Assembly (NCBI GenBank): GCA_035316325.1
Contig: DATHJB010000043.1
Span: forward strand, 1 to 64,000
DNA: 64,000 bases
From: Acidimicrobiales bacterium
Lineage (GTDB): Bacteria; Actinomycetota; Acidimicrobiia; Acidimicrobiales; VFJN01
Direction of reading: 5' to 3'
A model generated the notes under the pieces. That model worked only from the letters and a program-made list of their open reading frames with translations, made no database searches and was not told the DNA's origin. The position numbers were made by a program, and so were the translations under genes. Below are positions 7,632-60,218 of this stretch, in pieces; position 1 is the first letter of the stretch, and each line of letters opens with the position of its first letter.

Positions 7632-7681
7632 CGTTCTGTCTTCGCTCAGCCGGCTATGCCGGGCTGAGCGAAGACAGAACG
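7632..7681. repeat. Palindromic element, family 1, copy 1 (intergenic)
   Basis: Perfect 20-bp arms (CGTTCTGTCTTCGCTCAGCC at 7632-7651 and its complement at 7662-7681) around a short centre that itself contains GGC-TAT-GCC. It follows the stop at 7628 and abuts the TAGTCT -10-like hexamer of the next gene, so it could act as a terminator. The near-identical copy inside rhaB (59073-59120) shows it is an interspersed element and not simply a local terminator. There is no T-tract. Confidence 0.85.
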
Positions 7682-21508: not shown

Positions 21509-21544
21509 GTCGAGGCGGGGCCAGGGCCGGGGGCCGGGGCCGGG

Positions 21545-21598
21545 TCGAAATCTCGACAGAGATGGCGCCATAGCGACCGTCTCTGTCGAAGTTTCGGG
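21545..21598. repeat. Palindromic element, family 2, copy B (between convergent genes)
   Basis: 54 bp: TCGAAA (21545-21550) pairs with TTTCGG (21592-21597); the inner arms TCGACAGAGA (21553-21562) and TCTCTGTCGA (21580-21589) are perfect. The first 16 bases (CGAAATCTCGACAGA) and last 14 (TGTCGAAGTTTCGG) repeat those of copy A, while the centre differs. It fills the gap between the plsC and ispH 3' ends, so a bidirectional terminator role is possible. Confidence 0.8.
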
Positions 21599-22775: not shown

Positions 22776-24230
22776 ATGTCCGTTCCCCGTGTCGTCGCTG
22801 TCGCGCCCGGTTCCCCTGCCGCGCGCGCCGGCGTGGCGGAGGGCGACGAGATCCTCACGGTGAACGGCGAGATGCCCCGTGACCTCATCGAATGGCGGAT
22901 GCTGGTGGACGAGCCCCACGTCGTGCTCGACATCCGGCGGGGGACGCTGGCCGAGACGTCGCTGGCCGTCGACAAGCAGGCCGGCGAGCCGCTGGGCGTC
23001 GAGGTGCACTCCGCCCTGTTCGACCGGGTGCGCACCTGCGACAACCACTGCGAGTTCTGCTTCATCTACCAGCTGCCCCCGGGTCTGCGCCGCAGCCTCT
23101 ACCTGAAGGACGACGACTACCGGCTGTCGTTCCTCTATGGGAACTTCACCACGCTCACCCGCTTCACCGAGGCCGACCTGGAGCGGGTCGTGACCGAGGG
23201 GCTCAGCCCGCTGTACGTGTCGATCCACGCCACCGACCCCGAGGTGCGGTCGGAGCTGCTGCGCAACCGGCGGGGCGCCACGAGCCTGCGCTGGCTGCGG
23301 GCGCTGCTCGACCACGGCGTCGAGGTGCACGGCCAGGTGGTGGTGTGCCCGGGCGTCAACGACGGTGCGGTGCTGGACGACACGCTGGCCGGCGTGCTCG
23401 ACCGCTACCCCGAGCTGGCGTCGCTGTGCATCGTGCCGCTGGGGGTGTCGCGCTACAACCGGGAGGCCCGGATGCGGCCGCACACCCGGTCGGAGGCGGA
23501 GGCCGTCGTCGAGGCCGTGGACGACTGGCAGTCGGTCTTCCTGTCCGCCCTGGGCCGCCGCCTGGTCTTCGCCGGCGACGAGTACTACCTGCTCGCGGCC
23601 CGCCCGTTCCCGTCCGCGTCAACGTACGGCGACTTCTCCATGCACGAGGACGGCATCGGCATGGCCCGCTCGTTCGAGGCCGAGCTCCTCGGCCCCGCCG
23701 AGCAAGCCCACCGAAATGTGCACGGAAACGCACGGATTCCGTCCGCTTCGGTGCACATTTCGGGGTGTGAGCGCGGCGGCTTCTTCCAGTGGGCCGACGG
23801 CGACCTATCGAAGTCCGTCGACTCGGAGTACGAGCCCTACCGCACGGTCCGGTCGTCCGAGCAGTCCGAGCAGTCCGTGCAGCTGAGCCCCCGGAAGGAC
23901 GCTCCCGTCGCCATCCTCACCGCCCCGTACGGCGCCCAGGTGCTGGAGCCGCTCGTGGCCCAGCTCGGCCGCCCCGAGGTCCGCCTCGTCCCCGTCGAGA
24001 ACCGCTACTTCGGTGGCAACATCGCCGTGTCGGGCCTGATGGTCGGCGAGGACCTGCAGCGCGTGCTGCTCGACCAGCCCTCGGGCCACCGCTACCTGCT
24101 TCCCGACGTCTGCCTGTCGCAGGGGCGCTTCCTCGACGGCACCGGCCCCGAGGACCTGCCGCACCCCGTCGAGGTCGTCCCCACCACGGGCGCCGCGCTC
24201 CGCGACGCTCTCGGCCTGGTGACCTCGTGA
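22776..24230 (+). CDS. DUF512 family PDZ/radical-SAM-like iron-sulfur protein
   Basis: 484 residues. N-terminal PDZ-like fold (VVAVAPGSPAARAGVAEGDE), then CDNHCEFCFIYQLPPGLRRS with a C-x3-C-x2-C cluster motif of radical-SAM type, then the DUF512 C-terminus (APVAILTAPYGAQVLEPLV; NRYFGGNIAVSGL). Usually found beside der, as here; its function is not established. ATG 22776 follows TAAGCT (22762-22767) by eight bases. Residues about 312-331 are encoded by a palindromic element (23709-23767) that keeps the frame open. Confidence 0.85.
   Translation: MSVPRVVAVAPGSPAARAGVAEGDEILTVNGEMPRDLIEWRMLVDEPHVVLDIRRGTLAETSLAVDKQAGEPLGVEVHSALFDRVRTCDNHCEFCFIYQLPPGLRRSLYLKDDDYRLSFLYGNFTTLTRFTEADLERVVTEGLSPLYVSIHATDPEVRSELLRNRRGATSLRWLRALLDHGVEVHGQVVVCPGVNDGAVLDDTLAGVLDRYPELASLCIVPLGVSRYNREARMRPHTRSEAEAVVEAVDDWQSVFLSALGRRLVFAGDEYYLLAARPFPSASTYGDFSMHEDGIGMARSFEAELLGPAEQAHRNVHGNARIPSASVHISGCERGGFFQWADGDLSKSVDSEYEPYRTVRSSEQSEQSVQLSPRKDAPVAILTAPYGAQVLEPLVAQLGRPEVRLVPVENRYFGGNIAVSGLMVGEDLQRVLLDQPSGHRYLLPDVCLSQGRFLDGTGPEDLPHPVEVVPTTGAALRDALGLVTS
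23709..23767. repeat. Palindromic element, family 2-like, copy C (inside DUF512 gene)
   Basis: 59-bp near-palindrome: perfect 13-bp arms CCGAAATGTGCAC (23711-23723) and GTGCACATTTCGG (23751-23763), and further pairing inward with about four mismatches. Its ends (CACCGAAAT and ATTTCGGGGTG) resemble those of copy A (CACCCGAAAT, TTTCGGGGTG), but the stem differs. It adds HRNVHGNARIPSASVHISGC to the protein at a point where relatives, as I remember them, go straight into a GFF-WVDG segment. Confidence 0.8.
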
Positions 24231-58162: not shown

Positions 58163-58908
58163 CAGAGGACCTCCCAGTGCTCCCGGTAGGGGTCGAGGCG
58201 CTCGTCGGCCGGGTCGAGCTCGGTGACGAGGACGTCGATCCGGTCGGGGAACAGGCCCCGCGCCACGCCCCGCTTGCCGAGCTTGCTGGAGTCCATGGCC
58301 ACGATCACCTCGCCGGCGACGTCGGCCAGCGCCTGCTTCACCTCGGCGTCCTCGAGCGTCATCTCCGAGGTGCCGTAGCGCGTGTGGACCGCCGCCGCCG
58401 ACACGAACAGCCGCCGCAGCAGCAGCTGGCGCGCCGAGTGGGTGGCCAGCGGGCCCACCAGGCTGCCGCTCCGCGGGTCGAGCTGGCCGCCGGTGAGCAG
58501 GGCGGTGACGCCGGGCTTGTTCTGGAGGGCGTTGAACGTGTCGGGCCCGTTGGTGACCACGGTGAGGTCGACGACGCCGCCGAGGTGGGAGGCGATCCCC
58601 TGGACGGTGCTGGAGGCGTCGACGCCGATCGCGCCGCCGTCGCCGACCAGCTCGGCCAGCTTGGCGGCGATGCGGCTCTTGGCCCGGGGGTGGCGGGTGA
58701 AGCGCTCGGCGAACGGCTCCGCTCCGATGCTCACCGCCCCGCCGCGGATGCGCCGGACGACCCCCTGCTCGGCGAGGATGTCGAGGTCGCGGCGGATGGT
58801 CATCTCGCTGACGTCGAACTCGGTCGCCAGCTCACCGACCTTGGCCTTCCCGGCCCGCCGCACCTCGGCCTCGATGCGCTGCAGGCGGATGAGGGCGTCG
58901 ACGCTCAT
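58162..58908 (-). CDS. DeoR-family regulator of the rhamnose operon
   Basis: 248 residues. N-terminal HTH (KVGELATEFDVSEMTIRRDL) and C-terminal sugar-isomerase-like sensor domain with GVDASSTVQGIASHL and the VVTNGPDTFNAL strand. ATG 58908 overlaps the rhaB stop. Position inside the operon suggests it responds to a phosphorylated intermediate such as rhamnulose 1-phosphate; inferred. Confidence 0.9.
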   Translation of the reverse strand: MSVDALIRLQRIEAEVRRAGKAKVGELATEFDVSEMTIRRDLDILAEQGVVRRIRGGAVSIGAEPFAERFTRHPRAKSRIAAKLAELVGDGGAIGVDASSTVQGIASHLGGVVDLTVVTNGPDTFNALQNKPGVTALLTGGQLDPRSGSLVGPLATHSARQLLLRRLFVSAAAVHTRYGTSEMTLEDAEVKQALADVAGEVIVAMDSSKLGKRGVARGLFPDRIDVLVTELDPADERLDPYREHWEVL

Positions 58909-60218
58909 CGGGTGGCGGTCCTTTCGGGGGTGAGGCCCAACGCCATGCCCTGGACCAGGGCGTTGCCGAGGGCCGTGGCCTCGACGGGGCCGGCGGCGAC
59001 GGGCAGGCCGGTCTGCTCGGCGAGGCGGCGGCGGTAGAGGGCCGACCGAGCGCCGCCGCCGATGACTTCCACGTTCTGTCTTCGCTGAGCCGGGTATGGC
59101 CGGCTCAGCGAAGACAGAAGCACCCGGGCCGTGGCGTCGACCATCGACTCGACGATCGTGCGGACCACCACGGGCGGCGGCGTGGAGCGGGGGAGGCCGG
59201 CCGCCCGGGTGACCTCGCCGAGCATGTCGTCGGGGTGGAGGAAGCGGGTGTCGGTGACGTCCACGATCGTCCCATCGTGCTCCACGGCGGCCGCCGCGGC
59301 GAGCAGGTCGTCGATCGGCGGGTCGCCCCAGGCCGGGCGGCACCCCTCGATCAGCCAGCTGCCGGCCAGGTTCTTGAGGAAGCGGATGCCGCCGAGGGCG
59401 CCGGCCTCGTTGGTGAAGTTGGCGAGCCGCGCCCACTCGGCCAGCTCGGGTGCGGGCTGCTCCCGGCCGACCAGCATCCAGGTGCCCGCGGAGACGAACG
59501 CCGCCCTCGGGCCCAGGTCGAGGGCGGCGACCGCCGAGGCGGTGTCGTGCCCGCCGACCAGGTGGACCGGGACGCCCTCCCAGGTGCCGACCCGGGTGCC
59601 GGCCGGCTCGATCGGGGCGAGCAGCATGGGGTCGACGCCGATCGCCTCCAGGAGCGCGGGCGACCAGTCGCCGGTGGCGAGGTCGACCAGCGCCGTGGTG
59701 CCGGCACTGGTGCGCTCGGCGTGGACCTCGCCGGTGAGGTGGTGGGCGAGGAGCTCGGGGAGGAGCACGACGTGCCGGGCCCGGGCCAGCTCGGCGCGGT
59801 CGTGGACGGCCAGCTGGAACAGCGTGTTGAACGGCTGCAGCTGGACCCCGGTGGTCCGGTAGAGGGCGACCTCGCCGAGGCGGTCGACGATCGTGCGGTA
59901 GCCGTCGGTGCGGGGGTGCCGGTACGAGAACGGCGGGGCGACCAGGCGACCGTCGGCGTCGAGGAGCCCGTAGTCGACGCCCCAGGTGTCGATCCCGATC
60001 GACGCCACCGGCCCGGCGGCCCGGGCGAGCTGCAGGCCCCGGATCATCTCGTCGACCAGGCGGTCCCAGTCCCAGCGGCCGTCGGGGGTCGGTTGGTGGG
60101 CGTGGCGGTGGACGACCTCCAGCCGGGCCGACGGCAGGTCGACCCGGCAGACCCGGATCGACGCCGCGCCGAAGTCGACGGCGACGACCGTGGTGACCTC
60201 GCCGGCGCCCCCGGTCAC
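58905..60218 (-). CDS. rhaB: Rhamnulokinase
   Basis: 437 residues from GTG 60218, overlapping the rhaI stop. FGGY kinase with VAVDFGAASIRV (phosphate-1 loop), GIDTWGVDYGLLD (rhamnulokinase-type substrate motif), HDTASAVAAL, SAGTWMLVG and VIGGGARSALY. Phosphorylates L-rhamnulose at O1. Residues about 367-382, just before VEVIGGG, are encoded by a palindromic element (59073-59120) that keeps the frame open, so this surface segment differs from relatives. Confidence 0.9.
   Translation of the reverse strand: MTGGAGEVTTVVAVDFGAASIRVCRVDLPSARLEVVHRHAHQPTPDGRWDWDRLVDEMIRGLQLARAAGPVASIGIDTWGVDYGLLDADGRLVAPPFSYRHPRTDGYRTIVDRLGEVALYRTTGVQLQPFNTLFQLAVHDRAELARARHVVLLPELLAHHLTGEVHAERTSAGTTALVDLATGDWSPALLEAIGVDPMLLAPIEPAGTRVGTWEGVPVHLVGGHDTASAVAALDLGPRAAFVSAGTWMLVGREQPAPELAEWARLANFTNEAGALGGIRFLKNLAGSWLIEGCRPAWGDPPIDDLLAAAAAVEHDGTIVDVTDTRFLHPDDMLGEVTRAAGLPRSTPPPVVVRTIVESMVDATARVLLSSLSRPYPAQRRQNVEVIGGGARSALYRRRLAEQTGLPVAAGPVEATALGNALVQGMALGLTPERTATR
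59073..59120. repeat. Palindromic element, family 1, copy 2 (inside rhaB)
   Basis: Perfect 20-bp arms TTCTGTCTTCGCTGAGCCGG (59074-59093) and its complement (59100-59119) around GTATGG. Relative to copy 1 at 7632-7681 the stem is identical except that one C-G pair is G-C, a compensatory change, and the loop differs slightly. It encodes LSSLSRPYPAQRRQN in the rhaB frame without a stop codon. Confidence 0.85.

Follow-up and report, generated by a model that had tools for sequence, protein, structure and literature searches.

How does a near-perfect palindrome come to be translated within a metabolic enzyme, and does it add to the protein or take the place of residues that were already there? The rhamnulokinase gene (rhaB) of an Acidimicrobiales bacterium raises this question, and we addressed it by analysing the 64,000-nucleotide stretch of DNA that carries the gene (hereafter the window) together with the rest of the genome assembly (6.37 Mb in 244 contigs, estimated to be 97% complete). 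We consider it likely that the palindrome belongs to a lineage-specific REP-like repeat, here called F1, whose habitat is the 3' end of genes, which has been copied around the genome and which entered rhaB as an in-frame replacement.

A stable palindrome is translated within rhaB

The rhaB palindrome has the sequence TTCTGTCTTCGCTGAGCCGGGTATGGCCGGCTCAGCGAAGACAGAA (Table 1). An earlier note on this DNA had placed it at 59073-59120 (48 nt), and the two outer bases of that interval, G and G, are unpaired, so that the true length is 46 nt. As DNA, the element folds into a perfect stem of 20 bp closed by a 6-nt loop (-30.7 kcal/mol), and none of 200 shuffled sequences was equally stable; as RNA, on the rhaB strand, the z score is -7.3. 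As the same note described, the palindrome is read in frame within an uninterrupted ORF, and its product, LSSLSRPYPAQRRQN, directly precedes the VEVIGGG stretch of RhaB. The ORF matches rhamnulokinases on both sides of the element.

Table 1. Positions of the gene and of the palindromes discussed, in window coordinates.
Feature	Position	Strand	Remarks
F1 palindrome in rhaB	59074..59119	-	encodes LSSLSRPYPAQRRQ(N); in frame; fold z -8.3; one of 34 copies
Rhamnulokinase (rhaB) coding region	58905..60203	-	from ORF list, TIGR02627, FGGY_N + FGGY_C and E. coli RhaB 2cgj
Second F1 palindrome of the window (copy L024)	7634..7679	+	5 nt past a predicted gene end, the usual habitat
Family C palindrome (51-nt core)	23711..23763	+	in frame in ORF 22833-24230
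Family A palindrome, 51 nt	21546..21596	.	between convergent genes, gap 21509-21598

The rest of the protein is that of a rhamnulokinase. The product matches TIGR02627 (E 6e-87, profile positions 1-438 of 454) and E. coli RhaB 2cgj (E 2e-67), both the FGGY_N and the FGGY_C domain are found in it, and it contains the stretches DTWGVDYG, GHDTASA and GGG. The start of the coding region at 60203 is provisional, as the ORF extends from its end at 58905 on the minus strand to 60362. Among the 419 windows of 14 codons in the gene, the codons of the element are the second most atypical. RhaB probably still works, as the intact remainder of the protein suggests and because the replacement proposed below changed its length by whole codons. 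An AlphaFold model made from the single sequence, with no alignment, reached a pLDDT of 37.6 and was too poor to use.

The palindrome belongs to a family of fixed length

F1 occurs 34 times in the genome and every copy is exactly 46 nt long. The half-site CTGTCTTCGCT has 65 exact occurrences, 64 of which fall within these palindromes. The fixed length therefore does not simply reflect the pattern used for searching, and a chance origin of the rhaB palindrome is excluded. The copies end in TTCTG/CAGAA, positions 4-13 of the arms are nearly invariant and the central AT is present in 34/34. Where the stem does vary it varies in pairs, 22 cells being changed on both sides compared with 12.9 in shuffled data (0/500 shuffles). 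One copy (in L042) has the ends AACTG/CAGTT, a paired change.

The assembly is fragmented and several F1 copies lie near contig ends, as might be expected if the palindrome were an assembly artefact. Against this, the 34 copies, each of which has its own context, have 29 different centres, they show a strong location bias and covariation, and the half-site is nearly absent elsewhere in the genome. The probability that the palindrome is a product of chance or of the assembly is, in our estimate, negligible.

F1 was absent from the 30 relatives searched, it was not found in the viral contigs searched, and a search of Rfam with the palindrome returned no match. Among GTDB contigs, a collection that may omit records very near this genome, no palindrome with the F1 spacing was detected. 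The same contigs contain hairpins with the 11-bp arms of F1, in other spacing and with different flanks, in Scytonema, Rhizonema and Trichodesmium, with single ones in Aliiroseovarius and Tannerella. The cyanobacterial hairpins (L075-L080 and L083-L085) share the arms CTGTCTTCGCT/AGCGAAGACAG, and most of these arm matches sit inside a longer palindrome, GTAGTTGCG...CGCAACTAC. Kinship of F1 with these GTDB hairpins was considered and set aside, the match of the arms being probably a coincidence given the very many hairpins in the collection.

Native codons are missing where F1 lies within genes

The palindrome could be dismissed as coincidental if hairpin-free homologues of RhaB encoded the same residues, and none of them does. 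In 21 homologues from the order, the segment corresponding to the element consists of different and mostly shorter residues, and E. coli RhaB aligns with similar length across the region. The net gain in rhaB is 2 codons relative to most of these homologues and 7 relative to the closest one (58% identity), not the 15 that the element spans. The suggestion in the earlier note that the element replaces or fills a variable stretch thus stands, and the evidence favours the first of its two halves: the rhaB copy appears to have replaced about 15 codons, namely a variable segment before the GGG strand.

A second copy tells a similar story. It lies at L041 1500-1545, within a gene at L041 790-2148, at the place where most of 24 homologues carry a conserved DDLxxTVGN motif, and the net length of the gene differs from theirs by -2 to +3 codons. 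For both genes, the ancestral lengths are those implied by homologues, the closest of which, for rhaB, is the one 58% identical. Pfam recognises only ChsH2_C in the L041 gene, whose upstream part we take to resemble 3-oxoacyl/HMG-CoA synthases, and a paralogue with 54% identity is found at G000:C84:4232-5650. With a conserved motif overwritten, the L041 protein may be inactive.

F1 copies lie close to stop codons

Only 2 of the 34 copies lie wholly inside genes, as called by a simple script based on codon usage; the rest are intergenic or overlap gene ends. The distances between F1 and the stop codon cluster at 2-9 nt, and the copies are often found between convergent genes. Where both gene ends of a convergent pair are clear of F1, just 8-15 nt are left besides the element; when insertions are placed at random in those convergent gaps of a sample of the genome that have no hairpin, far more is left (0/20,000 draws as tight). 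In about six further copies a gene enters the element and stops inside it, so that the element forms the C-terminus; these genes encode an enoyl-CoA hydratase, a lipoyl synthase, a luciferase-like protein, a pseudouridine synthase, a trypsin/PDZ protein and one protein of no recognised kind. Two copies flank a predicted gene matching AbiEi_4/MTES_1575 between convergent genes, in a cassette-like arrangement (L042 1500-2547).

Alternatively, the rhaB palindrome might be a selected regulatory hairpin, for instance an attenuator that lowers expression of the DeoR-type ORF directly following rhaB. A very stable RNA hairpin lying 165 nt before rhaB ends would suit that role. But translation passes through the palindrome, there is no terminator-like site (T-tract) around the rhaB copy, and the same palindrome adjoins unrelated housekeeping genes, which makes a regulatory origin very improbable. 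The rhaB copy would instead be a tolerated passenger. Elsewhere, at gene ends, the hairpin may act at the RNA level, on transcript ends or on ribosomes, as described for REPs.

In one case the junction of F1 with its surroundings is seen in two forms. Contigs C86 and C218 carry one and the same copy, with 160 of 161 bases identical in the right flank and 95% identity in the gene on the left. In one of the two variants the gene keeps its own stop codon, and a spacer separates it from the element; in the other both are gone and the intact element supplies the C-terminus. These variants probably represent two strains in one assembly, and an assembly error at the palindrome could also produce the difference. 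The contig ends that hold this copy and its two left junctions, L030 1-463 and L043 1261-1706, are 94% identical. Across the family, the flanks adjoining F1 are more alike between copies than sequence farther out: 31 end pairs share at least 6 matching bases next to the element, compared with 2-6 at other offsets. The flanks often contain a stop codon with CCG or CG directly after it, a pattern that is only suggestive, CCG following 9.5% of all stops in the genome.

F1 resembles REPs and falls outside their tagged superfamilies

F1 is short, palindromic, present in many highly similar copies and mostly extragenic, and in this general sense it is a REP. It also shares with REPs the preference for gene 3' ends and convergent gaps, the supply of some stop codons and the occasional intragenic copy. 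Published REPs show the same closeness to stop codons, GTAG- and CGTC-type REPs lie inside genes in many other bacteria, and REPs that supply stop codons or lie less than 20 bp from both ends of convergent genes have been reported (PMC3733652). The Rickettsia elements, the case named in the earlier note, are therefore not the only precedent. Our search of the open-access literature found no report of in-frame palindromes in an actinobacterium.

Unlike GTAG/CGTC REPs, F1 has no terminal unpaired tetranucleotide and no such conserved tag in its flanks, and its stem has 20 bp compared with 5-13 bp and 8-9 bp in the GTAG- and CGTC-tagged elements (PMC3733652). The GTAG superfamily is associated with RAYTs (Y1 transposases), whereas a profile search (PF01797) of the F1 genome, 97% complete by estimate, gave no match while its controls were positive; nor is there a transposase among the 30 proteins neighbouring F1 copies. 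Unlike REPs, moreover, F1 is fixed at 46 nt and its copies in rhaB and in the L041 gene stand in place of native codons. F1 and the families described below thus behave like REPs but lie outside the definition of the GTAG/CGTC superfamilies, and the best reading is that F1 is a new family of REP-like repeats that carry no tag and for which no RAYT was found.

Other repeats offer partial parallels. The Rickettsia palindromic elements (RPEs) are about 150 bp long, lie in frame within protein genes and have nearly half of their copies in ORFs (PMC10969869). F1 resembles them in being read in frame in genes of unrelated function (rhaB and the L041 gene) and is set apart by its size, 46 nt, and by its location, with two copies of 34 wholly intragenic. 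Like MITEs, F1 is a short, non-coding, multi-copy inverted repeat whose copies lie close to genes and are in some cases in frame; unlike them, its whole unit is a single palindrome, with neither a parent transposon nor a target-site duplication identified. The flanks often have CG on both sides, itself a palindrome, and no parent element was found. Intrinsic terminators are likewise stable hairpins shortly past stop codons and often between convergent genes, but the arms and length of F1 are near-invariant at its 34 loci, more than termination alone requires, and the F1 flanks listed have no T-run. Integron attC sites were set aside, the F1 copies being dispersed and symmetric; by inspection, they appear to lack attC core boxes.

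How the palindromes may spread

The reading that we prefer, a REP-like repeat copied to gene ends and on one occasion into rhaB, would run as follows. A palindrome of fixed length, forming a very stable hairpin and usually sited directly past stop codons, would be copied to new sites in the genome, presumably by a conversion-like or repair-like process with loss of target DNA. In rhaB, the element would have taken the place of the variable helix/loop segment that precedes the GGG strand, with a net change of whole codons. The intragenic replacements, the variant junctions and the likeness of the flanks favour a copying or repair process in which target DNA is replaced and the edges are left soft.

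A stronger version holds that untagged palindromes with no transposase found spread by overwriting, that is, by conversion-like or template-switch copying in which a target stretch of similar length is substituted and a few flanking bases are carried along. If true, it would account for the replacements that keep the reading frame as well as for how closely the elements fit between convergent genes. We regard it as possible but doubtful. A family C copy within the window counts against the reading that we prefer: its gene has about 17 more codons than its homologues, which is the length of the element itself and thus a pure insertion. That clean insertion of 17 codons agrees with another scenario, in which the 46-nt element (+2 nt) inserts cleanly and small deletions then trim the native codons flush, under selection for loop length; the variant contigs, with flank lost beside an intact element, agree with it too. 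However, two unrelated genes and many gene ends would all have had to be trimmed flush while the arms stayed near-invariant, and we think this scenario rather unlikely.

Palindromes inside genes are already known as a kind for REP-like repeats; overwriting is the new part. Judging by the rhaB copy, repeats of this sort may overwrite protein sequence as well as sit between genes, and here part of an actinobacterial enzyme that is apparently intact comes from a palindrome. These observations bear on the spread of REP-like palindromes in genomes where no transposase is found and on why they lie so near to stop codons.

F1 shares its genome with at least four other palindrome families of fixed length, making at least five in all, which emerged from a hairpin survey of a 1.07-Mb sample of the same genome. 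Families A (CGAAAYYTCGACAG...), B (CGAAATTGCGTGG...) and C (CGAAATGTGCAC...) are 51 nt long and family D (TCTTTGAAGGGAA...) is 45 nt long. Exact patterns find about 40 copies of family A and 10 of family D in the genome, and neither family in 247 further genomes from the order; in samples of two genomes from the same taxonomic family, gene ends carried no repeated families of this kind. With at least five lineage-specific families, homologues of the genes that hold intragenic copies reveal the probable prior sequence, and as insertion (family C) and overwriting (F1) can be told apart within one genome, the mechanism becomes testable. A family D copy within a membrane protein gene (L130) adds 6 codons relative to the closest homologue and 0 relative to another. 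At L119 11478-11524, a family D palindrome holds the stop codons of both flanking convergent genes.
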